Below, one piece after another: positions 1-46,012 of a DNA stretch of 64,000 nt. Where the stretch lies: NCBI GenBank assembly GCA_009699205.1, contig WLOP01000007.1:1-64000 (forward strand), read 5' to 3'. Positions within the stretch are counted from its first letter, which is position 1, and the number at the start of each line of letters is the position of its first letter. Under the pieces are notes generated by a model, which saw only the letters and a program-made list of their open reading frames with translations, was not told the origin of the DNA and ran no database searches. This DNA comes from Actinomycetota bacterium (GTDB taxonomy: Bacteria; Actinomycetota; Actinomycetes; Nanopelagicales; Nanopelagicaceae). Position numbers and translations under genes: made by a program.

Positions 1-3
1 CAT
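1..3 (-). CDS. start codon of a gene leaving the left edge
   Basis: The first three bases are the complement of an ATG. A GGAG ribosome-binding site lies 7 bases upstream on the minus strand (around 11-14). Everything upstream of that is nearly identical to the region before the surface-protein gene that starts at 4738. I infer another member of the LAANI/FGQGVAQT surface family begins here, but only its start codon is inside the window, so the product cannot be confirmed. Confidence 0.45.
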
Positions 4-17
4 CGCTTCTCTCCAAA

Positions 18-139
18 TTCATCGTGCAAGGTGCTCCCGTATGGACCACGCACGGCAACTTGTGAGGAGGCCGATGGGTTAACCCTTACAGGTGCAAGGG
101 GAGAGTGCAAGGCAGGGGGTTGGGCAGACCCAACCTTTT
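18..139. repeat. 122-base repeated leader element, copy 1
   Basis: This stretch aligns without gaps to 4754-4875 with about 8 mismatches in 122 positions; the first 43 bases are identical. Both copies lie directly before a minus-strand ATG. At its right end is a hairpin (GGTTGGG, 4-base loop, CCCAACC) followed on the plus strand by TTTT. The T run is on the plus side only, so the element could be a small plus-strand RNA with its own terminator, antisense to the leader, or a minus-strand 5' UTR regulator. I recognise no known riboswitch family. Confidence 0.75.
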
Positions 140-286
140 AGGATGAAATATTCTCTCAATACTTCTTAAGGGTAAGGAATTTATACTTACCACGCTCGCT
201 TCGACTCTTTTAGAAATAATATCTCTGGCCCTAAATCCACCGGAGGGTTGTTTCGAGGCTAAAGTTTTGCATATGAGAGTCACAGC

Positions 287-310: not shown

Positions 311-2608
311 GTGCTAGCCCTACGGAGATTTCTTGGACTTGTTCTCATCATGCCGTTCCTATCTATTATTCCTATTGCACCAGCCCAAGCCGCCTGTACC
401 GATAGTGGTTCAGGAACAATCGCCAAATTTCTTTCTGTGGGAAGTTGTAACTGGACTGTGCCCGCCGGAGTAACGAGTGCACAAGTATTGATTGTCGGTG
501 GTGGTGGTGCGGGTGGATCAGGAACTTATGCAGGTGGCGGTGGTGCGGGACGCGTTGTTTACTTTTCAAGTTTGGCGTTAACTCCCGGAGCTTCAATGGC
601 TATCACTGTCGGCAATGGTGGCGCGCTAAATAACACAGCGTGGGAAGCAGATGTTTCCCGTGGAGGTTCTGGAGGAGACTCTTCATTCTCGTCTTACACT
701 GCAGTTGGTGGTGGTGGTGGTGCCGGAAACACAAGTGCCGCGAGATCTGGTACTCCGTTATTTACAGTCGATGGTTCATACGGTGTTCAAGGCGGAAGTG
801 TCGGTGGACAGGGTCAGGCGAATACTGCTACGTACTCATCAGGTAGTCCTACAACTGCTCCAGGTACATTAAATTCCAAAGCAACGCTCAATAGTGTCAC
901 TGCCGATAACGCCACAATCTTTTCTTATGGAAATAAATCCGGAGCAATGCCTGTCAGCACAACAGTTTGGGGTGGATCAGGTGGTGGAGGAGCCGGCGGT
1001 GTTGGTCAAGACGTGAGTGCCTGCAATATTGGCGGTAACGGAGGAATTGGAATTACTACGGCGGCAATTTCAACGCTGTTAGCATCGGCTTCATTAGGAG
1101 TTCTCTCAGGTGGCTCTCGTTACATCGCTGGAGGCGGTGGAGGTGGTGGCCGAACTAGTTATAAAAACTGCGGTAACGGATCAGTTTCCACCTACGCGAT
1201 AGGAGGCACTGGCGGAGGCGGCAACGGTGCAGTGTGGTCTGGAAGTTCTGCCCCTGCTGCCTATGCTGTAAATGCTGGGAGCGGAACAGATAATACTGGC
1301 AGTGGTGGTGGCGGTTCCGGTTGTATTTCAGCATGCAACACTTATCCTCAAACAACTGGCAAAGGTGGAACAGGTTTCGTTTTAATCAGTTACACCGTGG
1401 CTTCGAAAATTGATCAAGCACCACTCACACTCTTCTCCACCTCTGGCGCTTATGGAAGCGCACTCACCCTGACAACATCTGGCGGTAGTGCAGGTGCTAG
1501 CAGTTATGCGCTCACCGGTAGTGGCGCCACCGCATCGGGATGTTCGATCTCTGGAGCAACACTGACAGTGAGCTCCTATGGAACATGCAAAGTCACCGCA
1601 TCGCGAGCCGGAGATGACAATTACAACATTGTCTATGCAGCAGAGACGATAGTGACCTTTGCAAAAGCTGACACTCTCACTATTACTGCAAACTCTCCTT
1701 CGGCAATTTCCTACGGAGGATCCACCCCTACCAATGGATATTCCACTTCAGGTTTAGCCGGAAGTGATGCAATCTCATCTGTGACCTATACCTATACCAA
1801 CCAAGTGGGAACTGCTTCATATAACTCTGCCACTGCTCCCACTAACGCTGGTAGTTACTCCATCACTCCATCGGCGGTTACTTTCTCTACTGGCGCTAGC
1901 GCCAACTACACCAGCATTACCTATGCTGCAGGGACTTTCACTATTAATAAGGCGACACCAACAATTTCTTTAAGTTATGGAGCTTTCACAGTTGGACAAG
2001 CAGCAACGATTACTGCTGCAGTGAGTGTTGCTGGATCAGTCAATTTCATGAATTCCAGCATTTCCCTAGCTAGTTGTAGTGCTAAAGAAAGTTCGGGTTC
2101 CCTGACACTAATTTCCACATGCTCTTATACGCCAATAACCGCTGGTTCGCTCATATTTACGGCAATTTTCACACCGACTGAGAGCACTAATTACAACTCA
2201 CGGACATCATCGACTTATTCAGCTGTTGCTTATGCGCTGGTGAAAACATTAGTACTTGCTCCTCCCACTCCTTCTCCCGCCCCCGTACGGTTGGTCCTCA
2301 TTGGTCAGTCACCGCTAGTTCAAGTCGCCTCAGTACCAGCTCCAACAATTACAGGATTTAAATCAACTGGCGTCGGAACTCCGTCAATCACTACAGCTGC
2401 ACGAAATGCTTTAATCACTATTACTGGAACAAATCTGACAGGCGCAACCCTTGTGAAGGTGAATGGCGTCATTGCAACGATCACTGCAATCACTGCTACC
2501 TCAGTTACCGTTCGTATCCCAACAACCTCTTTAAGCGGAAAAATCTCTGTCTCCACCCCTGGAGGGACGGCGACGTCAGCGAATTCCTTGGTAATTACTG
2601 CGAGTTAG
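311..2608 (+). CDS. secreted glycine-rich protein with Ig-like/MBG and IPT/TIG domains
   Basis: This 765-residue exported protein probably has an adhesive or surface-matrix role. Residues 1-28 are a signal peptide (basic start, hydrophobic core, AQA cleavage region). Residues about 55-360 are very rich in glycine, with repeated GGGGAGG runs, as in many secreted glycine-rich bacterial proteins. Then come three beta-rich repeats of MBG/Ig-like type (about 368-450, 451-545 and 546-640), a Pro-rich linker (PPTPSPAP) and a C-terminal domain matching the IPT/TIG fold. No LPXTG motif or C-terminal membrane segment is visible, so the anchoring mode is unknown. The start is GTG at 311. It has no operon partner: the next gene is convergent. 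The family is inferred from composition and repeat pattern; the ligand is unknown. Confidence 0.7.
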   Translation: MLALRRFLGLVLIMPFLSIIPIAPAQAACTDSGSGTIAKFLSVGSCNWTVPAGVTSAQVLIVGGGGAGGSGTYAGGGGAGRVVYFSSLALTPGASMAITVGNGGALNNTAWEADVSRGGSGGDSSFSSYTAVGGGGGAGNTSAARSGTPLFTVDGSYGVQGGSVGGQGQANTATYSSGSPTTAPGTLNSKATLNSVTADNATIFSYGNKSGAMPVSTTVWGGSGGGGAGGVGQDVSACNIGGNGGIGITTAAISTLLASASLGVLSGGSRYIAGGGGGGGRTSYKNCGNGSVSTYAIGGTGGGGNGAVWSGSSAPAAYAVNAGSGTDNTGSGGGGSGCISACNTYPQTTGKGGTGFVLISYTVASKIDQAPLTLFSTSGAYGSALTLTTSGGSAGASSYALTGSGATASGCSISGATLTVSSYGTCKVTASRAGDDNYNIVYAAETIVTFAKADTLTITANSPSAISYGGSTPTNGYSTSGLAGSDAISSVTYTYTNQVGTASYNSATAPTNAGSYSITPSAVTFSTGASANYTSITYAAGTFTINKATPTISLSYGAFTVGQAATITAAVSVAGSVNFMNSSISLASCSAKESSGSLTLISTCSYTPITAGSLIFTAIFTPTESTNYNSRTSSTYSAVAYALVKTLVLAPPTPSPAPVRLVLIGQSPLVQVASVPAPTITGFKSTGVGTPSITTAARNALITITGTNLTGATLVKVNGVIATITAITATSVTVRIPTTSLSGKISVSTPGGTATSANSLVITAS

Positions 2609-3571: not shown

Positions 3572-4738
3572 TCAATTACCCGTACTTTGGAAAATCGCGC
3601 GTGTGTAATCCGCGCCATAACCCATCGATGGGCCCTGCCCAAGAAATTGCGTTCCAGCCAAAGACCAACCAGGTGAGAGTCCTGGTTCAGAGTTCGCCCA
3701 GACAGGGTAGGGACTTCCTGCCCAACCATAACTAGCTGGCAAATCTGGAGCTGAGTGCCAACAAATACCGAGGGGGCTTTCACCGCATGGGCTTCCACTC
3801 CACATCGAATCTGCTGAACCAAAGCCCACCGCCTTGTTACGAGTCCCTCCTCTATCGTCACTAAAGTACCAACCAGATCCGTTGGCAATATGTGCATCAC
3901 TGGCCGAAGACGAATTGGTAACGGTAAAGACGTCAGCACGTGGTGCTGCGGCAAGTAACGTAATAGTTGCTGGAATTGTTTCCGGAGAAGTCGAGGCGCC
4001 TGCCCAACCTGCATACATCAAATACTCACCTGTACATGACGCCTGTATTGAGGAGAAGCTTGCGAATCCATTGTACGGACCAGACCAACATAATTCCCAT
4101 CCTCCAGATGTAACGGTTGTTCCAGAAACATCAGCCTGTGGCCCAAATGGATAGTAGGAGGGCTCTGTGCTAACAGCGATATCACTACTTTCAATCGTAA
4201 CCTTATAAACTTGGCTAGAACTTACCAATGGTGAATCTATGGTGATAATAAAAGAAGTTTCATCGACAGATTCGAGAGTATATCCGGACTGAGCTTTTAT
4301 GAAACCTGATCCCGTCGCATGGACTATGAAACTGCTTAATCCGTTTGCTAGTTCAAGCGGAGTATTACTCGATTCTCCATAAACTTTAATGGTAAAAGTT
4401 TTTCCAGAGCAATGTCCGGAAGTAACATCAATATCTGAAACAGAAATACTCTTTAGATTAAAGACACCTGTAGCCGTACTTGGAGTTGGTTCAGGAGATG
4501 GTGTTGCAGTGTTGTCGAAAGCCGAGCTCGGAGTAATCGTGATGGCGCCATCGCAAGCAGTCGTTTGCGCAACACCTTGACCGAATTCAACAGGCCCTGA
4601 ATTAATGTTGATGTTGGCAGCAAGCGTGGATCCAAGTCCAAGAACTGCGGCAAGGATGATTGAACCAAGAACAAGCTTTGTTGGTTTCAGTCTTACAGAA
4701 TTCGGTTTTCCTCCACCGTTAAAATCAAAAATAGACAT
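3572..4738 (-). CDS. surface protein, LAANI/FGQGVAQT module plus C-terminal domain
   Basis: The protein has 388 residues. A short polar N-terminus (MSIFDFN) and basic residues precede a hydrophobic segment ending in STLAANI, which looks like an export signal. The family signature (INSGPVEFGQGVAQT) follows, then a roughly 150-residue beta-rich domain with a cysteine soon after the signature and a second in SGHCSGK, probably a disulfide. The C-terminal 170 residues are rich in Trp, Gly and Ser with several cysteines; I do not recognise that domain. The start is set at 4738 because GGAG lies 8 bases upstream; an in-frame ATG at 4789 is inside the repeated leader and lacks such a site. Function is unknown, probably a cell-surface structure. 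Confidence 0.65.
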   Translation of the reverse strand: MSIFDFNGGGKPNSVRLKPTKLVLGSIILAAVLGLGSTLAANININSGPVEFGQGVAQTTACDGAITITPSSAFDNTATPSPEPTPSTATGVFNLKSISVSDIDVTSGHCSGKTFTIKVYGESSNTPLELANGLSSFIVHATGSGFIKAQSGYTLESVDETSFIITIDSPLVSSSQVYKVTIESSDIAVSTEPSYYPFGPQADVSGTTVTSGGWELCWSGPYNGFASFSSIQASCTGEYLMYAGWAGASTSPETIPATITLLAAAPRADVFTVTNSSSASDAHIANGSGWYFSDDRGGTRNKAVGFGSADSMWSGSPCGESPLGICWHSAPDLPASYGWAGSPYPVWANSEPGLSPGWSLAGTQFLGQGPSMGYGADYTRAIFQSTGN

Positions 4739-4753
4739 CGAACGATCTCCGTT

Positions 4754-4875
4754 TTCATCGTGCAAGGTGCTCCCGTATGGACCACGCACGGCAACTTATG
4801 AGGAGGCCGATGGGTTAACCTTTACAGGCGCAAACGCAGAGTGCAAGGCAGGGGGTTGGGTAAACCCAACCTTTT
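4754..4875. repeat. 122-base repeated leader element, copy 2
   Basis: This is the second copy of the element at 18-139, ungapped and about 93 percent identical by hand count. It begins 16 bases upstream of the ATG at 4738. Its terminal hairpin (GGTTGGGT, AA, ACCCAACC) is followed by TTTT on the plus strand. Differences from copy 1 cluster in the hairpin loop and one internal segment, while the 43 bases nearest the gene are identical. The remaining spacer to 4968 holds nothing else I can identify. Confidence 0.75.
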
Positions 4876-4967
4876 GGAGTTTATTTTGCGTGTGAAGCAA
4901 GAATTAATCTGAAGCAAGGGTCAAAATTGGCGCGTCCACTCCGGCGTTGGATTATTGGCTAGGCGAC

Positions 4968-5813
4968 TTAGGTCGGTTTTACTCCAACCCCGTTTTCGTA
5001 TTCGACAGAGTACGAATCAGGGAAATACTTCATCGTCTCAACTGTTATTTTTGAAATTGCTCCCGCGAAAGGATCTTCCGAGGAATAATAGTTTGCAAAA
5101 GTAAAACTAGAATTAGCATCGTAAGCAGTAGGATAAGTAATATCTAATCCTCCTGTGTCAGAACTTGAACTTACTGAGCCATAGTTATTGTCATCGAGTG
5201 TTGCATCAAAAATTATTGCGACATCACTATTGGCAAGGTAGGCGTTATTTTGGTAAGGATCACCATCTTCTACGGTCCACATCAATGGAGATGTAATCGT
5301 ATCTGCCTGAGACTCGTAACCATCCTTTGTATATGCCGCGTAATCTGGATTATCTGTATAAGCCTTAAAATCTAAAACAACTCCATCACATGTATTTATC
5401 CACGAATTCGCATCGGTGTCGTAGTACTGCCCAGGGTGATCTGCTGCCGCAGCAGCTGCATCGGCATAATCGAAACTCGAAAGATCCGAATCATCAAACC
5501 CAGTGCCCACGGGCGTCAAGTTCAAGTCAGAGACTTGAACATAATCAATTCTAAACATCGAAAGTTCGTTGTCATAACGCGTAACAGGGGTAATAGTGAA
5601 GCCATCGGAGTCGCAACTTGTTGTTTGCGCAACACCTTGTCCGAATTCTACGTTTGTGTCGTTGTTAAGGGTGATGTTGGCCGCCAAAGTAGATCCAAAA
5701 CCAGCGAGTGCGGCTAGGCCACCAATCCCAAGAGTTGCCGTCAATTTTTTGCTGGAGGTACGTTTTTCTGGTAAAGAATCGTCAGGATTTGAATTGAACT
5801 TTAAAATCTCCAT
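4968..5813 (-). CDS. short surface protein, LAANI/FGQGVAQT family
   Basis: The protein has 281 residues and consists of the family module only. The N-terminus MEILKFN and a Lys-rich patch are followed by a hydrophobic segment ending STLAANI, then VEFGQGVAQT. The mature part is acidic and rich in Asp, Tyr and Ser, with conserved blocks FRIDYVQVSDLNL, CDGVVLDFKAYTD and, near the end, KITVETMKYFP. The same blocks occur in the protein at 14762-15754, so these two form a short, no-extra-domain subtype. The start has GAGAG about 7 bases upstream. It sits just downstream of the transporter-ligase operon in the same orientation but 78 bases away. The role is unknown; a fibre-like or coat subunit is one possibility. 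Confidence 0.65.
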   Translation of the reverse strand: MEILKFNSNPDDSLPEKRTSSKKLTATLGIGGLAALAGFGSTLAANITLNNDTNVEFGQGVAQTTSCDSDGFTITPVTRYDNELSMFRIDYVQVSDLNLTPVGTGFDDSDLSSFDYADAAAAAADHPGQYYDTDANSWINTCDGVVLDFKAYTDNPDYAAYTKDGYESQADTITSPLMWTVEDGDPYQNNAYLANSDVAIIFDATLDDNNYGSVSSSSDTGGLDITYPTAYDANSSFTFANYYSSEDPFAGAISKITVETMKYFPDSYSVEYENGVGVKPT

Positions 5814-5891: not shown

Positions 5892-7367
5892 TTAAGCACA
5901 ATTACCCCGAAGAAGTAACCCTGGTAGAGGTGATTTAAGAGGCACTTTTACGCCCTCTTTAAGTGCCTGGCGCAAAACTTTGCCGTTTTCATTTCTCGGA
6001 ATCGAGGAGATCTTAAACAATGCCTGCGGAACAACCGGGACTTTCTTCCCAAGAACCTTCCCAAAGCGCTCGAGATCAAAATCATCATCCGTCACGAGTG
6101 CCAGCCCTAAAATTTCAATACCCGAAGGGTCGAGCATGGCAAAAGCTGCGCAATCGATTACGCCCAATTGGGCTTGGGCTATTTCTTCCACTGCCTCAGC
6201 TCCAATTTTGACTCCGCCGAGGTTAAACACTTCGTCCAGCCGCCCCTCCAGCACCAATGCACCGGCGCTATTGAGATAACCATAATCACCGGGATAGAAA
6301 AACCCTTCGCGGAAAAATTGTGTAGTGGCTCCTGGGTTTGCGTAATAGGAATCCGCCATGCCTAATTTGCGGTATCGCACTTCCCCAATAACTTTTGGAC
6401 CCACCACTTCGTTCTTCTCGTCCACTATTTGTAAAGTAACTAACGAGTCCATCTTGAACTCGCTGATCTTGTCGCGATTTATTTCGCGACTTGTTATTAG
6501 TCCGGCTTCCGTTGAGCCGTAGATATCAATAACTGTGCAATCTAGGTGGCTATGGATTCTTTCGATGAGAACTTGAGAGGGATGGCTGCCGGCCAAAATT
6601 ATGGTTTTCAAGAAGGGAAGATTCGTGCCGGTATTTGTAAGTAATTGTAAGAAAGTTGCAATCTGCGCTGGTGAACCCATGAGCGTCCTAATGGGGTATT
6701 TGCTCAACACTTTTGGCAATCGATAATCGACAAATCCAGAACTGAAAAAGGACCTTCCTGAAACAAGGGAATTAATCGCATGGCGATAGGTGGTTCGAGC
6801 GCTCAGAGGGAACAGTCCCATCACTTCAGGTTCTCCGGCACAGTCGAATGCACCGACCTCGGCAGCAATTGATTCGAGCTGACCAGCCGTTGCCATTGTG
6901 TACTTGAGGGTGCCCGTAGTCCCGCTCGTTGCAAATAATCTAGCCGGATCTGAAAGTTTGGCATACCCAGGAATCGATTCGAGCTCTGGTGTGCTCTTCA
7001 CTCGTTCAAGGAAAGGCTCATCGATGATAATCGTGCGATTCAAAGCAACCAGCTCATTGGGGAGAAGCGAAATATTCCAATCAATATTAAGTGGTGGGTT
7101 TGAGCGAATCAGTTTTCCGCTCGCGAAAGATACAGTTCCCAGGAAATGAAGGGCGAAGGTTGTAATAATTCCTAAATAGGAAGGTAACGTTGTATTGACT
7201 AGATGCCCTCTTGTAATTCCTTCCTCTTGTAGCACTTTCGCCATTCTGTGAGAGAGTGAATCCAACTGCGCAAAGGTAATTTCGTATTCTTCGTCGGCAA
7301 AGGCAATCTCGTTGGGTTTAGTTCGTGCCCAATGGCGCATTAACTCATCAAATTTACCGGCATCCAC
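5892..7367 (-). CDS. AMP-dependent ligase (ANL superfamily), copy 1
   Basis: This 491-residue adenylate-forming enzyme is expected to activate a carboxylic acid with ATP, usually to an acyl-CoA. The phosphate-loop motif reads ATSGTTGTLKYT, with Lys-Tyr where most relatives have Lys-Gly. Other core motifs are YGSTEAG, YPGDYGY followed by EGRLDEVFNLGG, and the catalytic lysine in PRNENGKVLR. It is shorter than typical long-chain acyl-CoA synthetases and has no carrier-protein domain. The start is GTG, sharing one base with the stop of the preceding ligase (TAGTG), so the two are translationally coupled. It is the last gene of the eight-gene transporter-ligase operon. The substrate is unknown; co-transcription with importers suggests an imported acid. 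Confidence 0.75.
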   Translation of the reverse strand: MDAGKFDELMRHWARTKPNEIAFADEEYEITFAQLDSLSHRMAKVLQEEGITRGHLVNTTLPSYLGIITTFALHFLGTVSFASGKLIRSNPPLNIDWNISLLPNELVALNRTIIIDEPFLERVKSTPELESIPGYAKLSDPARLFATSGTTGTLKYTMATAGQLESIAAEVGAFDCAGEPEVMGLFPLSARTTYRHAINSLVSGRSFFSSGFVDYRLPKVLSKYPIRTLMGSPAQIATFLQLLTNTGTNLPFLKTIILAGSHPSQVLIERIHSHLDCTVIDIYGSTEAGLITSREINRDKISEFKMDSLVTLQIVDEKNEVVGPKVIGEVRYRKLGMADSYYANPGATTQFFREGFFYPGDYGYLNSAGALVLEGRLDEVFNLGGVKIGAEAVEEIAQAQLGVIDCAAFAMLDPSGIEILGLALVTDDDFDLERFGKVLGKKVPVVPQALFKISSIPRNENGKVLRQALKEGVKVPLKSPLPGLLLRGNCA

Positions 7368-8788
7368 TATTTTTTCTCAAAGTTTTCTCGTAGTTCTTCT
7401 CTTAAGATTTTACCGTTCTCATTGCGAGGAATCGATTTCGTCGGAAAATAGAGTGTGGGCGGGTAGATAGATTTATTCTCCATAGTTTTCTTGAAGAGCG
7501 CAAGGTCGAAATCCTTGTCAGTGACCAAAGCTAATGCCAACTGATCAACGCCTGATTGGCTCATAATCGCGAAAGCTGCACAATCCAATACACCTAACTG
7601 CGCCATAGCAATTTCATCAACATTTTCAGGGTTAACTTTAACTCCCCCAAGATTGATTACTTCATTGCTTCGCCCTGCTAGAACCAATCGGCCTTGAGTG
7701 TCAATGAAGCCCAAGTCACCGGGATAGAAAAAGCCCTCGCGGAAATATTCGGCAGATGCTTCTGGATTGTTATAGTAACTCAGCGCCATTCCTTCGCGAC
7801 TGTAACGGATACTACCAATGGCACCTGCGGGCAAGATTTGATTAGCTTCATCAACTATTTGAAGTGTGACAGCAGGGTTAATTACGCCGGGTATTGACGA
7901 CTCTTGGGTAATAGTGCTGATTGCCACATTTCCTGCTTCGGCAGACCCATATCCATTCAACACCTCACAGCCTATTTGCGAATTTATTCGAGCTAGCAAT
8001 TTAGATGAAGGCGTACTTCCGCTCATCACGATTGTTTTGAGGTTTGGAAGTTGGGTATCGGTATGCATCTGAAGATTGAGAAAATTTGCTATCTGCACTG
8101 GCGATCCTAATAACGTTCTTATTGGATATTTACGAAGCATTTTAGTTAATCGGTAATCCCTAAAAGAACATGTGAAATATGGTTTTCCAGCCACAAGGCC
8201 CCGCAATGCGCGCACATAATTTGCACCCATCGCGAATGGGAACAAACTCAGAAGCGGATCTTCACCGGCAAAATCACTCTTTCCAGAGCGGCCGACCAGC
8301 GATGCGAGTCCATCGCTGGTAACGGCGAAATACTTGCGAGAGCCTGTGGTGCCGCTCGTCGAAAAGAAGCGCACGATATCGCTGCCGTGGGAATACCCGG
8401 GAGCATCTTTCATCTCCGGACCTGCCACTACGGTGGCTAGTAACGCTTCATCAAAGATGATGGTTCTTTCAATTCCGACTTCGGGATCCAATTGCAAAGT
8501 TATTAACCAATCTGGGAAAACTTCTGGATTAAAACCACCCCGTCCGATTTTGGACATGGTTTTTACGCCAAGTAAATGCAGTGCAAGCGTCGTGCTCCAT
8601 TCCAAATACGATGGCAAGGCAACGCAAACTAAATCCCCTTGCACTATCCCACGTTCGGTTAAGTGTGCAGCAGTCTTGAGAGCCAAAGAATTAAGTTGAG
8701 GAAAAGAGAGCACATATTCGTCATCAGCAAAAGCCAAACCATTAGGTTCATCTTGCGCCCATTTAGCCAGGATTCCAAAATCAAACAT
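7367..8788 (-). CDS. AMP-dependent ligase (ANL superfamily), copy 2
   Basis: The protein has 473 residues and is clearly homologous along its whole length to the ligases at 5892-7367 and 9863-11311. The phosphate loop is STSGTTGSRKYF, again with Lys-Tyr. It also has GYGSAEAG, a hinge with GRSNEVINLGGVK, and the lysine in PRNENGKILRE. A strong GAGGAGG ribosome-binding site precedes the ATG at 8788, the only clear one inside the second half of the operon. The 47-base gap to the preceding substrate-binding gene may allow some independent expression. Three paralogues in one operon suggest related substrates rather than redundancy. The acyl acceptor (CoA or another) cannot be told from sequence. 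Confidence 0.75.
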   Translation of the reverse strand: MFDFGILAKWAQDEPNGLAFADDEYVLSFPQLNSLALKTAAHLTERGIVQGDLVCVALPSYLEWSTTLALHLLGVKTMSKIGRGGFNPEVFPDWLITLQLDPEVGIERTIIFDEALLATVVAGPEMKDAPGYSHGSDIVRFFSTSGTTGSRKYFAVTSDGLASLVGRSGKSDFAGEDPLLSLFPFAMGANYVRALRGLVAGKPYFTCSFRDYRLTKMLRKYPIRTLLGSPVQIANFLNLQMHTDTQLPNLKTIVMSGSTPSSKLLARINSQIGCEVLNGYGSAEAGNVAISTITQESSIPGVINPAVTLQIVDEANQILPAGAIGSIRYSREGMALSYYNNPEASAEYFREGFFYPGDLGFIDTQGRLVLAGRSNEVINLGGVKVNPENVDEIAMAQLGVLDCAAFAIMSQSGVDQLALALVTDKDFDLALFKKTMENKSIYPPTLYFPTKSIPRNENGKILREELRENFEKK

Positions 8789-8835
8789 CCTTGGCTCGCC
8801 TCCTCATATATGGTCTAAAGTTAAAACATATAGGG

Positions 8836-9870
8836 CTATCTAAAGAGAATATGCCCCACACTCACCCGCGATTTAGTAAAGCCTAATAGTTTTAACTTGT
8901 TGGAGATATAGGAAATCTCAGAAAGAGCAACATTGCTTTCGCTCAATTTGGGCAATTTGAGTTTGGCCACAGCGTCATCGCTCACCCCAGTAACTTTGGC
9001 GATTGTCTTGCGGTACGTCGCTTCATTTTGAGGAAGATTAAGAAGGTGGTTTATTTCAAGAATTGCTTTTTGGAAAGCTCTCATGGCCGCCGGTTTTTTT
9101 GCAACAATTGTGGCAGTACTGACATAGACCACTGCAGCTCCCGGCTCAAAGTAATACGCCGATGGGTAACCAATAACACGAGCCCCGCTGAGAATGATTG
9201 ATGTGGCATAGGGATCACTTGGAACTACCGCATCAACATCCCCGCGATCAAGAGCGGCAACCATTTGAGCATCCGTCATCGCCAGAAATTCTGTTTTGTA
9301 AGAATTAGCAGCATTAGCTCGCATAGCTAAAATAACGCCTGCGTGATCTGGGCCCCTAAAAGATTTGACACCGATCTTGCTCTTCTCAAGATCTTTCCAA
9401 CTTTGTATAGCCGAGCTTTTCTTTACCAGCAATACAGTTTGCATCAATAACTGGCCCGGATAAAGCGGCTCACGCTTGGCACGCGCTAACTCTTCCGCAG
9501 AATACCCATGTCGTGGCGCAATGATTTTGGCTGCAAAATCTCCATTGGCCATTGCTGAAACGATATTAGAAGGAGTATTCATAAACAGATCAAATGACTC
9601 TCCGACTAATCCAGCCATTCCGATTTGTGCAGAAGCAACGCTTGTCGTCTTAATCTCGAGACCATATTTTTTGAAACATCCCTGGTCAATACCCCATTGA
9701 GCAGTAGGCATATTTGCTGGAATCGAGGCAAGTGACAAAGTTCCCAGATATTTAGGCGCCTTAGACGGCTGACTACACGCAAAGATTGTATCGGCGTTGA
9801 TTGGCAAGGATGCACTTGAAAGAATGAAGGCGGCTGTGAACGCCCCTAACAAATATCTTCTCTTAAACAT
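8836..9870 (-). CDS. ABC transporter substrate-binding protein, NMT1/THI5-like (second)
   Basis: This 344-residue periplasmic-type binding protein has a signal peptide (MFKRRYLLG start, hydrophobic core, cleavage near INAD). The body has the NMT1/SsuA-like pattern with GIDQGCFKKYGL, the region around GLVGESFDLF, and a ligand-site stretch DRGDVDAVVPSDPYA. It is strongly similar to the protein at 13627-14664, including the terminal LKLLGFTK. The ATG at 9870 overlaps the end of the upstream ligase by 8 bases, indicating coupling. No second set of permeases accompanies it, so it probably shares the membrane components encoded upstream and widens the substrate range. The ligand is unknown. Confidence 0.8.
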   Translation of the reverse strand: MFKRRYLLGAFTAAFILSSASLPINADTIFACSQPSKAPKYLGTLSLASIPANMPTAQWGIDQGCFKKYGLEIKTTSVASAQIGMAGLVGESFDLFMNTPSNIVSAMANGDFAAKIIAPRHGYSAEELARAKREPLYPGQLLMQTVLLVKKSSAIQSWKDLEKSKIGVKSFRGPDHAGVILAMRANAANSYKTEFLAMTDAQMVAALDRGDVDAVVPSDPYATSIILSGARVIGYPSAYYFEPGAAVVYVSTATIVAKKPAAMRAFQKAILEINHLLNLPQNEATYRKTIAKVTGVSDDAVAKLKLPKLSESNVALSEISYISNKLKLLGFTKSRVSVGHILFR

Positions 9871-11311
9871 CCCGTGAATCTCCAAATCCCTTTGCATCCT
9901 TGAGAAGCTCTTCCAAGTTTCCTCGCAACACTTTGCCATTCTCATTGCGAGGAATAATATCAGTCTGGATATATTTCTTTGGAAGATGGGCAGATTTCTT
10001 CTCCATAGTCTTTTGGAAAATTGCGAGGTTAAAATCTTTATCAGTAACCAGAGCCAAGGCAAGCTGTTCTACTCCTGTCTGGTCAGTTAACCCAAATGCC
10101 GCGCAATCAAGTACGCCTAACTGGGCTCGCGCGACCTCATCAACTTTCTCCGGATTAATCTTTACCCCTCCGAGATTGATCACTTCATTGCTTCGTCCCC
10201 CGAGAACCAATTTGCCATCGCCCTCAATTGAACCGATATCGCCCGGATAGAAGAAACCATTTCGAAAAGACGCGGCGGTGGCTTCGGGGTTCTTGTAATA
10301 GCCCTTCACCATTCCCTCTCTTGAGTAACGGATATAGCCGAGAGTGTCAGCAGGAAGAATCTGGTCGTTTTCGTCAACGATTTGCACAATGACACATGCA
10401 TTTATGTAAGACCCAGAGGGAATTTCATCGGTTACTTCTGCGAGAGTGACATTGCCCCCTTCTGTCGAGCCGTATGCATTAAATATTCGACAGTTAAGGG
10501 CACTCTTAATTCGCGCAATTATTTGAGCTGAAGGCGCGCTACCGCTCATGATTATTACTTTCAAATCTGGCAAAAGTGTTCCGGTTTGCTTTTGAACATC
10601 TAAGAAAAGCGAAACCTGTAGAGGCGATCCCATCAAAGTACCAATTGAATATTTGCGCATGATCTGAGGGAGGCGGTAATCCATTGATTCACAAGCAAAG
10701 AAAGTTTTTCCCACAGTTAAACCTTTAATAGCACGTCTAAAACTTTGACGAGATGCCACAGTATGCAGGCCCATGATGTGACCTTCTCCAATGAAATCAT
10801 ATGGACTTTTTTGAATTGGAAATCTCTCTAAGTCTCCGGCCGTCACCATTACATACTTAGTTTCACCTGATGTGCCACTTGTTCCAAAGAGAATTGCTGG
10901 ATCATCTGATGATGCATAGCCCGGTATAACTTCAAGTTCTTGGCATGCCATAATCTTTGATACAAGTTCCTGGGAAAACATTATGGTTCGTTCGGCAGAA
11001 ATTTGCGGATGAGCTCGATTGGTAATCATCCATTTTGGCGTGATGGCCGCAGGGAACTTTGTAATTCCGTTTTTTGAAAAGGCAGTCGCTCCAAGTAGGT
11101 GTATGGCTAGCGTAAAAGCCCAACGGAAATAGGGTGTCAATACGGTACAAACCAAATCACCTCTAGTGATGCCTACCTGGGATAGATGAGAAGCAATTTT
11201 TAATACATCTGCGCGCATCCGCGAAAAGGTAACTTCACTATATTCATCGACGAATGCGATTTCGTTCGGCTTTTCAAGCGCCCACTTCTCGAGAACACTA
11301 AAATCGTACAT
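9863..11311 (-). CDS. AMP-dependent ligase (ANL superfamily), copy 3
   Basis: This 482-residue adenylate-forming ligase is the first of the three in the operon. Its phosphate loop is GTSGTSGETKYV, with the same Lys-Tyr change as its paralogues. Motifs AYGSTEGG, YPGDIG followed by GGRSNEVINLGG, and the catalytic lysine in PRNENGKVLR are intact, so it should be active. It starts 5 bases after the ABC ATPase gene stops and overlaps the following binding-protein gene by 8 bases. That intimate placement between the ATPase and a second binding protein makes a transport-then-activate role likely. CoA ligase is the default guess; an adenylate or thioester onto another acceptor is possible. Confidence 0.75.
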   Translation of the reverse strand: MYDFSVLEKWALEKPNEIAFVDEYSEVTFSRMRADVLKIASHLSQVGITRGDLVCTVLTPYFRWAFTLAIHLLGATAFSKNGITKFPAAITPKWMITNRAHPQISAERTIMFSQELVSKIMACQELEVIPGYASSDDPAILFGTSGTSGETKYVMVTAGDLERFPIQKSPYDFIGEGHIMGLHTVASRQSFRRAIKGLTVGKTFFACESMDYRLPQIMRKYSIGTLMGSPLQVSLFLDVQKQTGTLLPDLKVIIMSGSAPSAQIIARIKSALNCRIFNAYGSTEGGNVTLAEVTDEIPSGSYINACVIVQIVDENDQILPADTLGYIRYSREGMVKGYYKNPEATAASFRNGFFYPGDIGSIEGDGKLVLGGRSNEVINLGGVKINPEKVDEVARAQLGVLDCAAFGLTDQTGVEQLALALVTDKDFNLAIFQKTMEKKSAHLPKKYIQTDIIPRNENGKVLRGNLEELLKDAKGFGDSRDV

Positions 11312-11316
11312 CCGCT

Positions 11317-12099
11317 CTACTTTCGCAATCCAAGGTAAAGGTCAGTACGCAATTGTGAAAAACGTGCTTCAGCGCGCGAAATAATCTGTTCTCGCGGGCG
11401 TGGCAGATCAACATCAAACTCCATACCGATTCCTGCTGGTGAACCTGAGAGCGTGATTACTCTGTCGGCCATGTAGATTGCTTCATCAATGTCATGGGTT
11501 ACCAGAATCGTCGTCACTGCGTGCTCATCTACCAACCGAGCAATCAAGTCTTCTAACTCTAAGCGCACATGCGCGTCAACCGAAGCAAATGGTTCATCAA
11601 GCAATAGCAATCTTGGTTGAGTCACTAGGGCTCGTGCTATGGCAACGCGCTGTTGCATGCCTCCGGAAAGTTGCCACGGAAAGAGATGCGAAGAATCCTC
11701 CAAGCCAACAGAAATTAAGACTTGTTTTATTTTCGCCGCTTTCTCCTCTTGAGATACATTGAGAGCCTTGAAAGGTAAGGCGACGTTACGCGCCACAGTT
11801 AACCAAGGAAATAGGGAACGGGAATAATCCTGAGTAACAAATCCCAATCCAGGATGCGGACCATTTACTACCACTGAATCAATCTGCACTTGCCCGGCGG
11901 TTGGTAGCGATAATCCAGAGATCAATTTAAGAAGTGTTGACTTACCGACCCCTGAAAGACCGCAGATTGCCAATACTTCACCTGAAGCCACTGCGAAAGA
12001 AATATCGTGAAGAACTACTTTTTCAGAGTCTGAATTTAAGAAACTCATTGAAATCCCGTTTACACGAACTTCATAGCCGCTGATCGATCCGATTTTCAT
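11317..12099 (-). CDS. ABC transporter ATPase, SsuB/TauB type
   Basis: This 260-residue cytoplasmic ATPase powers the importer encoded here. Walker A is GLSGVGKS (about 47-54), the signature is LSGGMQQR, Walker B is LLLLDEP, and the switch histidine is in LVTHDIDEA. These match the nitrate/sulfonate/taurine branch that pairs with NMT1-type binding proteins. The gene overlaps the upstream permease by 4 bases (ATGA) and is followed after 5 bases by a ligase gene. The family alone does not tell the ligand: members carry sulfonates, nitrate, pyrimidine precursors and aromatic acids. Confidence 0.88.
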   Translation of the reverse strand: MKIGSISGYEVRVNGISMSFLNSDSEKVVLHDISFAVASGEVLAICGLSGVGKSTLLKLISGLSLPTAGQVQIDSVVVNGPHPGLGFVTQDYSRSLFPWLTVARNVALPFKALNVSQEEKAAKIKQVLISVGLEDSSHLFPWQLSGGMQQRVAIARALVTQPRLLLLDEPFASVDAHVRLELEDLIARLVDEHAVTTILVTHDIDEAIYMADRVITLSGSPAGIGMEFDVDLPRPREQIISRAEARFSQLRTDLYLGLRK

Positions 12100-12863
12100 C
12101 GTATCTCCTTAGATTTGAAATACCAAGGAGCGATGCGCCGTTCGAGAATGAGGAATGCTTCGTTGAGGAATAACCCGAGTGCTCCAAGAATCAATATTCC
12201 CGTCCACATATCCTCAATCATAAAGGTTTGTTGGGAATGTATGACGAATGCGCCTAAGCCGATACCAGATCCCAACATTTCGCTTATCACCATAATGAAA
12301 AGAGCTACTTGCACTGCAGCCTGCAATCCCGCCAAAATCTGCCCAGTAGCGGCAGGTAACCTCACCGAGAAAATAGTGCGATAAGTGCCGTATCCCATCA
12401 AACGGGCGTTATCTAAGAGTTGTTCATCGGTTGTAGCCACCGCTCGTAATGTGACCATCAGAACCGGGAACAGCACGGCAACTGACACCGAACATATACG
12501 GCTGGCGGTACCAATCCCAAGGAGGGCCATGATCACCGGCACTTTTGCCACAGCGGGAATACTGCGAATGAAATTAGTAATTGGTGTAAATACTGCTCGC
12601 AAGAATTCTTGCGAGCCGATAACGGCCCCAAGCAATATACCCAAGATTGCGCCAATGAAGTATCCGCCAAGTAGCGTCGTCAAACTCGATTTAAGAGAAG
12701 TGCTCACCCAATCCCACGTTAACGTCGATCGAGCAGAAGTAAATATCTCACTTGGAGCTGGAAAATAAGGATTAGTGGAATTCTGGAGAAGCATTTGCCA
12801 GAGCACAATTATTAAAAAGGGAAACCAAACCCTTAAGAAAAAGCTTTTCACAATAGTTTTCAC
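12096..12863 (-). CDS. ABC transporter permease, SsuC/TauC type (second)
   Basis: This 255-residue inner-membrane permease has about six hydrophobic segments. It carries the family's EAA-like coupling loop (around DNARLMGYGTYRTIFSVRLPAA). It overlaps the ATPase gene by 4 bases downstream and the other permease gene by 4 bases upstream. Two different permease genes in tandem imply a heterodimeric channel, whereas many sulfonate importers use one permease as a homodimer. No ribosome-binding site of note is needed because of the coupling. Confidence 0.87.
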   Translation of the reverse strand: MKTIVKSFFLRVWFPFLIIVLWQMLLQNSTNPYFPAPSEIFTSARSTLTWDWVSTSLKSSLTTLLGGYFIGAILGILLGAVIGSQEFLRAVFTPITNFIRSIPAVAKVPVIMALLGIGTASRICSVSVAVLFPVLMVTLRAVATTDEQLLDNARLMGYGTYRTIFSVRLPAATGQILAGLQAAVQVALFIMVISEMLGSGIGLGAFVIHSQQTFMIEDMWTGILILGALGLFLNEAFLILERRIAPWYFKSKEIR

Positions 12864-13627
12864 ACTGATCGCCGCCAGCGGAATAACTGGTTCTCGATAG
12901 TTGTGAAAAGTCTATAAATCCAGACCCCTACCACTCCCATAACAAGTACATATGAAAAAAGACGTGGATTATTTGCATTCGTCTCGGCAGTCAGTAGCCC
13001 TAGACCTAACCCTGGCGTTCCCGCGATAATCCCAGTAGCAACTACTGTTCCAAAGGCTCTGCTAGCAGATAGGCGCAATCCAGTACTTGCAAGGGCGATA
13101 GTTGAAGGTAAATACACCAACCATATTTTTGTAAAAAACGACAAGTTCATCACTTTGGCTACGTCAAGCAATCGTGGATCTGTTTCGCCTATGCCTCTAA
13201 TTATGTATGTCACGAGTTTGAAAGTAACCACAAATGCGGCCAATAGCACCGCAGTCTTGGCAGATGACCCCACGGAGGCAACCAATAAGGGAAGGAACAC
13301 TACAGATGGTATAGATCGAACAAAATTAAGAACTCCTCGAGTTGCTAACTCACCTGACCGATTGAGGGCAACCATGATGGCGATTGTCGAGGCACATACA
13401 ACACCGACTACGAACGCGATCGAGGTAAGAAGAAGAGTGAGAATTAGGCTATTCCAGAATGCCACCGAGATAACCAACTGTGCCAAATCTGCGAGAACAA
13501 CCCAAATATGGGGGAAATATGCTGCGCCAGCCAGAAAAGAAGCCGCTTCCCAGAGGATGAAAGAAATCAGCAGAGTGCAGAAGAGCAAAATTGGTTTGCG
13601 CTTTACAGCCATCTGCACCTTAAACAT
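12860..13627 (-). CDS. ABC transporter permease, SsuC/TauC type (first)
   Basis: This 255-residue membrane permease is homologous to its neighbour at 12096-12863, with an N-terminal membrane anchor, about six transmembrane segments and a coupling loop around DVAKVMNLSFFTKIWLVYLP. Its ATG shares one base with the stop of the first substrate-binding gene (TAATG), and its own stop overlaps the next permease by 4 bases. With the partner permease and the ATPase it forms the importer core; the two binding proteins at 13627-14664 and 8836-9870 would feed it. Confidence 0.87.
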   Translation of the reverse strand: MFKVQMAVKRKPILLFCTLLISFILWEAASFLAGAAYFPHIWVVLADLAQLVISVAFWNSLILTLLLTSIAFVVGVVCASTIAIMVALNRSGELATRGVLNFVRSIPSVVFLPLLVASVGSSAKTAVLLAAFVVTFKLVTYIIRGIGETDPRLLDVAKVMNLSFFTKIWLVYLPSTIALASTGLRLSASRAFGTVVATGIIAGTPGLGLGLLTAETNANNPRLFSYVLVMGVVGVWIYRLFTTIENQLFRWRRSV

Positions 13628-14664
13628 TATCGGAATAATACACGAGCAAGGCTCACTCTGGTTTTTGTGAACCCTAAAAGTTTAAGTTTATTTGGAATAT
13701 AACTTATATCTTTGAACGCGACGTTCCGCTCCATCATAATTGGCAACCGCACTTTGGCGGCAGCTTCTTGACTGACGCCAGTTATCTTGGCAATCGTCTC
13801 TCGAAATGAAGACTCGTAATGACTTTGGTTGAGAAGATGGTTTATCTCCAACATCGCCTTCTGGAAAGTCTCCATCAACTTAACTTTTTTTGCCACAATA
13901 TTTTCAGAACTTATAAATACCGAGGCAGGACCAGGTTCAACATAATATGCCGACGGGTACCCAATAACCCGGGCGCCAGCCAGAATTGTCTCGGTTGCAT
14001 ATGGATCACTCTGCACGATTGCATCAACATCGCCTCTATTGAGTGCAATTGTCATCTGCGCATCAGACATGGTCAGAAATTCAGTTTTGTAGGAGTTGGC
14101 ACCAACGCTTTGCATCCCGAGCAGAACTCCAGCATGATCTTGGCTTCTAAAAGTCTTAATTGCGATTTTCCGCTTTTCTAAGTCACTCCAACTCTTGATA
14201 GGTGAATCCTTCTTTACTAACAACACGGTTTGAAAAAGAAGCTCGCCGGAATAGAGAGGTTCACGTTTTGCTCTAGCAATCTCATCGGCAGTATACAAAT
14301 GGCGAGGTGCCACGATTTTGCCCGCAAAATCTCCATTGGTCATCGCTTGTATGAGGTTGGTTGGGGTTGTTAACGCTAAATCAAAACTTGCACCAATCAC
14401 ACCTGCAATTCCAATTTGAGCAGAAGCCACTGGATTGGTTTTAATAGTTAATCCATATTTTTTGAAACATCCCTGGGCCAAACCCCACTCAACGCTGGTG
14501 AGCTGAACGCTCTGCCCGGCTACAACCAAAGTCCCTAAGTTTTTAGGGACTTTGGGTGGTTGCGTGCAAGCAAACGGGGTTGTATCGGCATGAGCAACCA
14601 AGGTTGGAAATGAAAGCAGCCCCAAGCAAAGGATCGCAGTTAGGAATTTACTTGCTCTTTGCAT
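13627..14664 (-). CDS. ABC transporter substrate-binding protein, NMT1/THI5-like (first)
   Basis: This 345-residue exported binding protein is the first gene of the eight-gene operon. Its signal peptide is residues 1 to about 26 (cleavage near AHAD). Landmarks are GLAQGCFKKYGL, DHAGVLLGMQ and DRGDVDA-like NRGDVDAIVQSDPYA. It parallels the second binding protein along its length, so the two arose by duplication and probably bind related ligands. A cysteine near the mature N-terminus (FACTQPP) is shared by both but is not in a lipobox position. A GATAAT element 6 bases before the ATG suggests a leaderless operon promoter at 14671-14676. The ligand is unknown. Confidence 0.82.
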   Translation of the reverse strand: MQRASKFLTAILCLGLLSFPTLVAHADTTPFACTQPPKVPKNLGTLVVAGQSVQLTSVEWGLAQGCFKKYGLTIKTNPVASAQIGIAGVIGASFDLALTTPTNLIQAMTNGDFAGKIVAPRHLYTADEIARAKREPLYSGELLFQTVLLVKKDSPIKSWSDLEKRKIAIKTFRSQDHAGVLLGMQSVGANSYKTEFLTMSDAQMTIALNRGDVDAIVQSDPYATETILAGARVIGYPSAYYVEPGPASVFISSENIVAKKVKLMETFQKAMLEINHLLNQSHYESSFRETIAKITGVSQEAAAKVRLPIMMERNVAFKDISYIPNKLKLLGFTKTRVSLARVLFR

Positions 14665-14761: not shown

Positions 14762-15754
14762 TTAAGGCGCGATTCCAGGGCTGTTATTCCAAGACAAGTA
14801 TCCGGCTGGGAAGTACTTCATGGATTCCACGGTGATTTTGCTAATACCTAGTGCCGGGTCTTCATCTTCGTTCTGGATACCAGAATACAACTCAGCACCA
14901 TGATGGCCATTTTTTGTGAAGAATTGGTAACTAGATTCCGCAACGAAACCTGTCCCACCAGCATCATCCGGAGATGTGATACTTATGTAATAGGTTTCAT
15001 CAAACCAATAAAAATCACCTAACAAATCCTGTGTGCCGTAGTTGCTACTGTAATTACTATCCGTTGAGTCGAACACTATCGCTACATCTGCGTTGCGGGC
15101 TTCGATAGAGGCATTTAGGATGCCACCGGATGTGTCATAAATATATTTGCTGCCATCCCATTGAGGGCTAGTATCTAGAATAGTCCAATACATAGGTGAG
15201 GCTGTATCGGTTGGAGCGGGGCCGGAGACATCGTTGGCGTAATAATCGTACCCGTCGACAGTATTGATCGAGTATGTCGGGTCATCTGTGTAAGCCTTAA
15301 AATCTAAAACTATGCCATCGCAAGTATTTTTCCATTGGCTATCGGCGTCATCAAAATATTGGCCAGGGTGAGCAGCTATTGCAGCAGATCCATCATATTG
15401 TCCATAAGTTTTCGTCGATGGATCATAAAGTGAGGTATCTGATCCGACTGGGATGAGATTAAGTTCAGAAACCTCTACGTAATCCAAACGGAAACCATTA
15501 GTAGCGTTATCAAAATATGCAACTGGTTTAACGTTAAATCCATCGGCATCGCAAGTAACAGTCTGCGCAACACCTTGACCGAATTCAACTGGCCCTGAGT
15601 TGATACTTATGTTGGCCGCAAGCGTGGATCCAAGCCCTGTGAGAGCAGCAAGTCCGCTTATGCCTATGACAGCTTTTGAACTCTTAGAGCGTTTAGGGGC
15701 ATAACTATCTTCCCAAGACTCTTCGCTGCCATCGCCCAGATTTAAAATCTCCAC
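14762..15754 (-). CDS. short surface protein, LAANI/FGQGVAQT family
   Basis: The protein has about 330 residues. The N-terminus (MEILNLGDGS when started at the GTG at 15754) matches the MEILKFN start of the protein at 4968-5813. GGGAG lies 8 bases before that GTG, so I prefer it to the ATG at 15769. A basic patch KRSKSSK and a hydrophobic stretch end in STLAANI, then INSGPVEFGQGVAQT. Later blocks FRLDYVEVSELNL, CDGIVLDFKAYTD and KITVESMKYFP mirror the other short member. It is acidic and tyrosine-rich with few cysteines. It is transcribed toward the transporter operon from a 300-base spacer containing a perfect palindrome. Function is unknown. Confidence 0.65.
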   Translation of the reverse strand: MEILNLGDGSEESWEDSYAPKRSKSSKAVIGISGLAALTGLGSTLAANISINSGPVEFGQGVAQTVTCDADGFNVKPVAYFDNATNGFRLDYVEVSELNLIPVGSDTSLYDPSTKTYGQYDGSAAIAAHPGQYFDDADSQWKNTCDGIVLDFKAYTDDPTYSINTVDGYDYYANDVSGPAPTDTASPMYWTILDTSPQWDGSKYIYDTSGGILNASIEARNADVAIVFDSTDSNYSSNYGTQDLLGDFYWFDETYYISITSPDDAGGTGFVAESSYQFFTKNGHHGAELYSGIQNEDEDPALGISKITVESMKYFPAGYLSWNNSPGIAP

Positions 15755-15902: not shown

Positions 15903-15936
15903 CGCAAAAAGGTTGGGTCTACCCAACCTTTTTGCG
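15903..15936. promoter_or_regulatory. perfect 16-bp palindrome in a divergent spacer
   Basis: Sixteen bases pair perfectly around a two-base centre; the core GGTTGGGT/ACCCAACC is the same as in the hairpins of the repeated leaders at 18-139 and 4754-4875. The flanking genes point away from it on both sides (15754 leftward, 16088 rightward), so it is not an ordinary terminator for either. It could be an operator, or the terminator of a small plus-strand RNA. The rest of 15755-16052 holds only the G9 run and nothing else I recognise. Confidence 0.6.
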
Positions 15937-44155: not shown

Positions 44156-45426
44156 AATCTTTTGCCTCAAAATTCACAATTGACACCACCCCTCTAAGAA
44201 AATATCGGGATTTTCGATATTTGTGGGCCTCTGGGCTGGTTTCATACCTCGGTTCCATGATTACTTATGTCGCAGTCCCTTTTCAGATCAAAGAAATGAC
44301 CCATTCTTACCTTGCAGTGGGGATCAGTGGCGCGGTCGAACTTATACCTCTCATAATTTTCGGTCTCTATGGTGGAGTACTCGCTGACTCTGTTGATCGC
44401 AAGAAAATGGTCTGGGCAACGGAGGCCGCTTCAGCTCTATTGACCTTAGTTCTATTCGCCAATGCAATGGCGCCTTCACCCAGTCTGGTATTGATCTATG
44501 TTGTTGCGGGGCTCTTTGCAGCAGTCGATGGATTGCAGCGACCAAGCTCGGATGCAATCTTGCCTAGAATTGTTGGCCACGCCGATCTTCCATCGGCAAG
44601 TGCCCTCATGAGCCTTCGTCGCCAATTTGGATTTATTGTCGGACCATCAATTGGCGGAATGATTATCTCTACATTCTCAGTGGCGGTCGGATTTGGTGTT
44701 GATGTAATTTCATTTCTATTCTCATTAGTCCTACTGTGGAAAGTAGGTTCGGTACCTCCAAACGAGAGCGCCGAAAAGCCATCTCTGGCAGGCTTATTTG
44801 AAGGTTTGCGGTATGCATTCAGCCGACAGGATTTGCTCGGAACATATCTCGTGGATCTTGCCGCTATGTTCTTTGCAATGCCCAACGCACTCTTTCCTTT
44901 TTGGGCAGATCAAATCGGAGCGCCTTGGGCCCTTGGATTCTTCTACGCGGCAGGAACAATTGGTTCAATCATCGTAACTTTGACCAGCGGTTGGATTAAA
45001 GATTATCGATTCCATGGCCGTGCAATTATTTGGGCAGCTATTGGATGGGGCATCGCAATTGCCTGTGCCGGACTCGTCCATTGGCTGCCACTGGTTCTGA
45101 TATTTCTCATAATCGCTGGAGGTTCGGACATGATCAGCGCCCTATTTCGAGGTGCCATCTGGAATCAAACTATTCCCGACCAACTTCGCGGACGATTAGC
45201 AGGCATCGAACTACTTTCATATGCAGTCGGTCCGCTCGCTGGCCAATTACGGGCCGCAACAATTGCATCCGCTACTTCATTAGCCTTCTCGGTAACTTCT
45301 GGCGGCGTTATTTGCATCATCGCAGTCATATTACTGGCCGGTTTTCTCCCAAAATTGAGGAAATATGACGTCAAAACGAACGAATTTGCAGTTCAAGAAC
45401 GAAAAAATCGAGAATCTCTCAACTAA
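44152..45426 (+). CDS. MFS transporter, EntS-like (MFS_3) exporter
   Basis: This 424-residue membrane protein has about 12 hydrophobic helices. The start FRYLWASGLVSYLGSMITYVAVPFQI and the loop GVLADSVDRKKMV are typical of the enterobactin-exporter-like MFS_3 group; PSSDAILPRIV and LRRQFGFIVGPSIGG follow. I start it at a TTG at 44152, which overlaps the panB stop and has CCGGAG upstream; the residues before it are inside panB. Coupling to panB may be only for expression; a pantothenate-related efflux role is possible but unsupported. The substrate is unknown. Confidence 0.8.
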   Translation: MKSFASKFTIDTTPLRKYRDFRYLWASGLVSYLGSMITYVAVPFQIKEMTHSYLAVGISGAVELIPLIIFGLYGGVLADSVDRKKMVWATEAASALLTLVLFANAMAPSPSLVLIYVVAGLFAAVDGLQRPSSDAILPRIVGHADLPSASALMSLRRQFGFIVGPSIGGMIISTFSVAVGFGVDVISFLFSLVLLWKVGSVPPNESAEKPSLAGLFEGLRYAFSRQDLLGTYLVDLAAMFFAMPNALFPFWADQIGAPWALGFFYAAGTIGSIIVTLTSGWIKDYRFHGRAIIWAAIGWGIAIACAGLVHWLPLVLIFLIIAGGSDMISALFRGAIWNQTIPDQLRGRLAGIELLSYAVGPLAGQLRAATIASATSLAFSVTSGGVICIIAVILLAGFLPKLRKYDVKTNEFAVQERKNRESLN

Positions 45427-45518
45427 GAGTTCATGCCGGGTGAAATAAATCTTTAAAAATCTCGTAAATGCACAAAAAAATAAAAAAAGTATTTTGCGAC
45501 ACGCACTACAAAAAATGT

Positions 45519-45540
45519 CACAAAATGCTGGCATTGTGTG
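45519..45540. promoter_or_regulatory. inverted repeat upstream of the histone-like gene
   Basis: CACAAAATGC and GCATTGTGTG form a ten-base inverted repeat with one mismatch around TG. It sits about 70 bases before the GTG of the Lys/Ala-rich protein, after a very A-rich stretch. A second hairpin (GGTTCG/CGAACC) lies at 45570-45590, just before the ribosome-binding site. Operator or leader structure; no family recognised. Confidence 0.4.
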
Positions 45541-45609
45541 CGATTTACTGACACCCTTATCCCTGAACAGGTTCGGTGACGGATCGAACCATTCCGATTG
45601 GAGAAGTAC

Positions 45610-46005: not shown

Positions 46006-46012
46006 CGACATT

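Follow-up and report, generated by a model that had tools for sequence, protein, structure and literature searches.

The genome of a member of the Nanopelagicaceae carries at least fifteen copies (about 18 matches) of a protein module of about 145 residues, and this module defines a real, unnamed family of modular surface proteins. We consider that, with a probability of about 0.5, these proteins belong to a surface-display system through which planktonic Nanopelagicaceae act in a coordinated way and without sortase, a reading that builds on the family and its heads, on the gene of a SipW-type signal peptidase with its linkage and co-occurrence, on a common palindrome and on a predicted fold, and that supposes cleavage, docking, polymerisation, a regulator and ligands.

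The window analysed, 64,000 nucleotides long, is the first 64 kb of contig C15 in an assembly of 1.42 Mb and 17 contigs (96% complete). An earlier note had described five proteins that share the module; all five are present and complete, and all lie on the minus strand, as do the module-related features of the window given below, a point absent from that note. Protein 1 (3572–4738, 388 aa; module match E 3.6e-64) begins with a long polar N-terminus and a hydrophobic segment ending in STLA (4619–4738, read from the sequence), with a presumed cleavage site between TLA and ANI. It continues with the mature N-terminal segment ANININSGPVEFGQGVAQTTAC (4553–4618), its most conserved part, which is unstructured in the AlphaFold monomer and is a candidate donor or docking strand, followed by a predicted Ig-like beta-sandwich domain (4178–4552) and a Trp-rich C-terminal head (3572–4177). 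Neither the protein nor this head has a match in Pfam or NCBIfam, and a similar Trp-rich head occurs in a paralog on contig C14 (L022:3795–4856). Proteins 2 (4968–5813, 281 aa, with an enlarged module) and 3 (14762–15754), both found by the genome module search, lack a separate head; for the latter, a start at 15754 yields (V/M)EILNL as in its paralogs, the start chosen by the ORF tool being 15769. Protein 4 (49837–51369, 510 aa) bears the C-type lectin head that had been proposed for it (PF00059 at 50035–50250, E 2e-5, 25.7 bits versus a cut-off of 22.6). Protein 5 (51378–52832, 484 aa) had been read as cadherin-like plus Lcl; the Lcl-like stretch at its C-terminus (51495–51611, NCBIfam NF046116, E 7.8e-5) is weak by itself, with 21.4 bits against a cut-off of 500, and the cadherin-like part has no Pfam match. 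Protein 5 ends 8 nt from the start of protein 4, and the two are probably on one transcript. The suggestion of a sixth protein gained support, since the left edge of the window is a copy of the protein 1 leader (92% over 130 nt) that ends in an ATG (positions 3–1) and the gene, which leaves the window and the contig leftward, is therefore very probably real. Elsewhere in the window, three tandem AMP-binding (acyl/aryl-CoA ligase-like) genes, then a probable ABC importer and a pair of related binding proteins, occupy 5892–14664 and, read by eye, may constitute an uptake and activation pathway, and a long low-complexity repeat (AAFLAAAFLRFFG on the minus strand) lies at 45331–46011.

With one module protein as the query, 14 places in the genome were matched; with the module alignment, 18 matches were obtained, the best of which (E 2.6e-69) excludes chance. 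Five of them are in the window and the others are on contigs C9, C11, C12, C13, and C14. Contigs C12 and C15 share their first 149 bases exactly (window 1–149 corresponds to C12:1–149), and C9 and C13 also terminate in module genes. Such breaks point to repeats or strain variation, and since module genes are where the assembly is broken, the count probably understates the true copy number.

All five window proteins contain the motif (S)TLAANIxINSGPVEFGQG(V/I)(A/S)QT, with NNDTN replacing NSGP in one of them, and the module ends, as described earlier, in K-I/V-T-V/L/I-E-T/S. The ten paralog modules of the genome align over about 187 positions, of which G25, A40, A41, I43, G48, E51–G55, C62, and C110 (numbered as in protein 1) are invariant; in the mature segment, E12, G14–G16, and C23 are invariant across 41 sequences. 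It might have been that the similarity was confined to the signal peptide, and HMMs were accordingly made, one of the mature part and one of what follows the first cysteine, the latter omitting both LAANI and FGQG. Without the signal peptide and the whole FGQG segment the search still finds 87 proteins, compared with 98 for the full module, so the similarity extends beyond the signal peptide: it takes in TPxSxFxN, the strand FxLxSITVSDI, CxGKxFxIKxY, and the final VYKITVET. The HMM of the part after the first cysteine also matches a collagen-like protein, to which we return below.

The earlier note did not recognise the family, and neither Pfam nor NCBIfam nor, with a 41-sequence profile, the sequences of the PDB contain a match to the module. 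When actinobacterial genomes were searched with the HMM (395 of the class and 296 of the phylum), strong matches fell only inside the module family, and weak ones (E 2e-6 to 9e-4) fell in five other families. The distribution is narrow, being that of the Nanopelagicaceae, and patchy, with modules in 25 of 151 genomes of the order; relatives in the public genome collection include Candidatus Nanopelagicaceae MAGs (acI freshwater actinobacteria). The open-access literature searched yielded nothing on the module motif, nor any account of a comparable system in Nanopelagicales. The nearest relatives of the module are short actinobacterial proteins of the pattern SAATLG...C...C (L082, L083, L084, L100, and L101), of about 130–155 residues, with SAATLG or similar after the signal segment, VASCD, and then VxSVTVxxIxxxCxGK. 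Their relationship is to the module's N-terminal half (hhalign 97% with the signal peptide, 96% for the mature parts), values that confirm rather than discover the relation because these proteins were picked by matching the module model. Like the module they have two conserved cysteines, and a SipW-type peptidase lies nearby in two of the five loci; unlike it, they carry neither heads nor FGQG. The two members that were scanned have no Pfam or NCBIfam name.

The conserved alignment, taken with the diversity of what follows it, bears out the proposal of a common module with interchangeable heads. Among 39 long members, the heads comprise 13 Lcl_C (PF07603), five Laminin_G_3, two BspA-type LRR, two Sortilin/BNR propellers, and one each of LDL-receptor class B, Gly-rich, and C-type lectin type. 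A Gly-rich secreted protein with an ordinary signal peptide is encoded at window 311–2608, and L021:5402–6946 combines a module with a similar Gly-rich region; since this region exists both alone and fused to the module, heads may also occur as stand-alone secreted proteins. A stand-alone Lcl-type protein with an ordinary signal peptide is likewise encoded downstream of a module gene, at L024:5990–6991. Repertoires and heads differ between related genomes, and together with the contig breaks this would suit a set of paralogs that serves as a rapidly changing coat, facing phages as receptors or facing grazers, rather than as an adhesion system. We regard this as quite unlikely, several heads being folds known for carbohydrate or protein binding, and the two functions are in any case not mutually exclusive.

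In the surface-display system that we favour, the module proteins would be made for export as precursors whose polar N-region is unusually long. This region has a median length of 25 residues and is followed by a hydrophobic stretch of 19 residues and a near-invariant site, S-T-L/F-A↓A-N/S-I, with T(-3) and A(-1) each in 58 of 62 members and A(+1) in all 62, the last having belonged to the search pattern with which the members were collected. A dedicated signal peptidase, which the earlier note had recommended seeking elsewhere in the genome, was found adjoining module genes: one gene, C9:7313–7648, exceeds the cut-off of TIGR02228 (SipW/archaeal type) with 52.9 bits, on a contig of 8.6 kb that also carries three module genes, two of them cut by the contig ends. 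Its product, L020:7232–7912, passes the TIGR02228 cut-off by a narrow margin (52.9 bits, or 52.5 in another scan, versus 51.85) and does not reach that of NF046067, SipW of Bacillus (20.9 bits versus 190); SMSP and SHRI can be read in its sequence, with catalytic Ser and His replacing the Lep-type Lys. Of the 151 genomes of the order, 18 encode a close homologue of the peptidase (E below 1e-25); all 18 belong to the 25 module-bearing genomes, and the other 126 have none (Fisher P 5e-18, which overstates independence, the genomes being related). In 17 of the 18, no more than 3 kb separates the peptidase gene from a module gene, and the distance is often under 50 nt. As for other signal peptidases of the genome, an S24 match at C10:100293 was rejected as the main enzyme, the Lep-type gene being C10:127825, which adjoins a ribosomal-protein gene and an rnhB-like gene; a further match of the signal-peptidase search, on C16, adjoins a Ni-SOD gene.

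Two other fates of the signal segment have to be weighed against cleavage by the SipW-type enzyme. A polar N-region with a hydrophobic stretch behind it resembles a signal anchor, and if that stretch stayed uncleaved the module would be a stalk and the heads would act singly, with no fibres; the genome has no match to sortase (PF04203) at E<=1, and the complete genome G010 has a single module gene, both of which fit such a view. It is nevertheless rather unlikely, for the segment ends in a near-invariant T-L/F-A↓A, a site of the signal-peptidase type, an ER-type signal peptidase is tightly linked to the module genes, and an anchor would have no need of an invariant EFGQG. The second possibility, an unlikely one, is that the module proteins are secreted single-subunit adhesins processed by Lep, the SipW-type peptidase serving the core subunits only, and that they dock there or stay loose. 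A TLA↓A site would be acceptable to a Lep-type peptidase, and seven of the 25 module-bearing genomes, G010 among them, have no TIGR02228 match above the cut-off, so that a SipW-type peptidase is not strictly required for every member. Against this, signal segment and cleavage motif are common to core subunits and head proteins, and one palindrome stands before both the head genes and the peptidase gene. Several of the seven genomes encode module proteins with divergent N-termini; a different N-terminus, MSDDFYHDDPIE or similar, is found in L075:6485–8005 (G010) and in L080:7281–8390 and 9386–10870 (G041), and such proteins, in genomes that lack the SipW-type peptidase, are possibly a variant processed otherwise. 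The favoured reading would have the SipW-type peptidase of the core locus cut the module precursors after TLA.

This core locus comprises about eight genes and recurs across genera. Its products are a protein rich in Pro and Ser, subunit A (about 230 aa, FGQGSQQAVACD), another module protein, the SipW-type peptidase, a membrane protein (about 520 aa), the collagen-like protein, a protein of 210–265 aa with SDSPLVIDLPDGQKLVxGKM, and a membrane protein of 118 aa; in the genome of the window, one part of the locus probably lies at the end of C13 and the other on C9. At its C-terminus, the collagen-like protein has a domain related to the module (hhalign 95.8%). In several genomes, genes for a sensor kinase and a LuxR-type regulator (the latter in L021, L072, and L081) adjoin the locus, and their products are candidate regulators. 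A conserved pair of small membrane proteins is also found beside the locus (L021:2468–3725, L074:6847–8127, and L135:10242–11518), one of about 165–190 aa (AGWMYADLFLxLMVIFLATISFVP), which looks MotB-like at its transmembrane segment, and one of about 250 aa; the pair has no Pfam match above the cut-off.

Structure prediction of the mature module alone (AlphaFold, 41 sequences) gave an Ig-like sandwich of eight strands with pLDDT 83.8 and pTM 0.78. The pLDDT is 91–97 from residue 51 and 36–57 over residues 1–20, which include the invariant EFGQG, and the model of subunit A is alike, its residues 1–15 having a pLDDT below 50. A low-pLDDT N-terminus has other possible causes; still, that the most conserved segment is left unused by the predicted monomer fold suggests that it binds another subunit, and its exclusion from the sandwich is suggestive of donor-strand docking, which we infer because of the analogy with TasA, whose N-terminal donor strand extends into the next subunit after processing by SipW (PMC9674648). 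A structure search with both models returned only generic Ig domains (Z about 6), and Foldseek returned insignificant matches only. Neither a pilin nor TasA, whose subunits are jellyrolls with donor-strand exchange, was clearly matched in the fold searches, and the absence of TasA from the listed matches excludes nothing; a likeness to FimA-type pilins that recurs among the insignificant matches of the second model (TM about 0.2) was set aside.

The likeness to TasA/SipW-type fibres drawn in the earlier note is strengthened by the peptidase beside the module genes; by sequence, the module is not a TasA member. Membership was rejected by both profile search and profile comparison, since PF12389 (TasA/camelysin) is absent from the matches of the five proteins at E<=1, has no match in their own genome and reaches a hhalign probability of 4.7% or less with the module. 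As in TasA/TapA/SipW of B. subtilis (PMC9674648) and TasA/CalY/CapP of B. cereus, in which TasA/CalY are assembled without a sortase (PMC13082335), a SipW-type peptidase is encoded together with its presumed substrates, and the present system would likewise be sortase-independent, with secreted subunits predicted to be beta-sandwiches and a strand-like N-terminus directly after the cleavage site. Unlike the TasA systems, it has modules with many different C-terminal heads and two conserved cysteines, together with conserved collagen-like and 520-residue membrane proteins. The TIGR04089 proteins (exp_by_SipW_III, the RER_14450 family) are also actinobacterial and are named as exported via a SipW-type peptidase, but no sequence relation to the module was found, and membership was rejected (no match in the same genome, hhalign 0.3%). 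Gram-positive fibrillar adhesins, too, join a stalk or assembly module to an adhesive head; in contrast to them, this genome has no sortase and encodes short single-module proteins in many paralogs. The system probably works like SipW-dependent systems without being of the TasA family by sequence.

The leaders of the scattered module genes have in common a palindrome, GGTTGGGTNNACCCAACC. Allowing up to two mismatches, the genome contains 13 sites (0 for the reversed-pattern control), of which 12 are at module or peptidase genes, counting a module gene that is truncated where C13 ends and the identical ends of C12 and C15 (149 bp in common), which may be one repeat; the thirteenth (C17:29458–29475) lies between a guaB-like gene and the gene of a secreted protein of 605 aa that has an ordinary signal peptide. 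In the window, the pattern search places copies in the leader of the sixth gene (GGTTGGGTCTGCCCAACC, 118–135), upstream of protein 1 (GGTTGGGTTTACCCAACC, 4854–4871), and upstream of protein 3 (GGTTGGGTAGACCCAACC, 15911–15928), and a degenerate copy upstream of protein 5 (GTATGGTTTTCCCAACC, 52923–52939) has a TTG 6 nt downstream. Such a TTG, resembling that of a -35 box, stands exactly 6 nt after the palindrome in six of 11 aligned copies, against a background of 2.3% (P 6e-8), and most of the others have this spacing off by one base or a few, which is what an activator site beside a promoter would look like. The palindrome might instead be an intrinsic terminator on the opposite strand, with no common regulon: read from the other side, most copies form a stem followed by TTTT, and a terminator scan calls the plus strand at 4849–4876. 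This too we find distinctly improbable, given that a terminator does not need exact sequence conservation, that 12 of the 13 copies stand at module or peptidase genes in one orientation, and that more than half keep the 6-nt spacing to TTG. Judged by these sites, the module and peptidase genes probably form a common regulon. Among the loci examined, exact copies are confined to this genome, with near copies in the relative L067, so the putative operator looks lineage-specific, and the palindrome was rejected as a family-wide element. The stretch of about 90 nt between palindrome and start (CGGCCTCCTCA...CCATACGGGAGCACC...GATGAA) is conserved in three or more module-gene leaders (window 4738–4830 and 1–90; L024 about 4250–4346); it was rejected as a riboswitch, having no Rfam match, folding z-scores of -0.2, -2.0, and 0.9, and no consistent fold.

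Under the favoured model of a sortase-independent display system, cleavage would free an N-terminal strand, ANIxINxGxVEFGQG, which has no place in the Ig-like sandwich of its own monomer and which could dock into, and complete, a neighbouring module or a core-locus subunit. The lectin, Lcl, laminin-G, propeller, and LRR heads would thus sit on a short fibre, or on a base at the surface, composed of the collagen-like protein and the conserved core subunits, and the palindromic operator, just upstream of the promoters, would switch the scattered head genes and the peptidase gene together. Should all of this hold, it would amount to a second and distinct class of surface fibre of the donor-strand type in Gram-positives, in which any subunit can bear a head of its own and which is switched as one regulon, in streamlined planktonic bacteria, a claim that we advance tentatively and consider rather unlikely as a whole. 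Nanopelagicales (acI) are among the most abundant freshwater bacteria and are usually viewed as passive, streamlined plankton. The tiny free-floating lake bacterium studied here probably makes adhesive surface structures as a switchable set, by a route that resembles the TasA/SipW biofilm fibres only loosely, and the family offers concrete genes, a cleavage site, and an operator. That a 1.4-Mb genome keeps about 15–18 multi-headed proteins, a peptidase, and a control site implies that attachment or surface variation matters to some Nanopelagicales.
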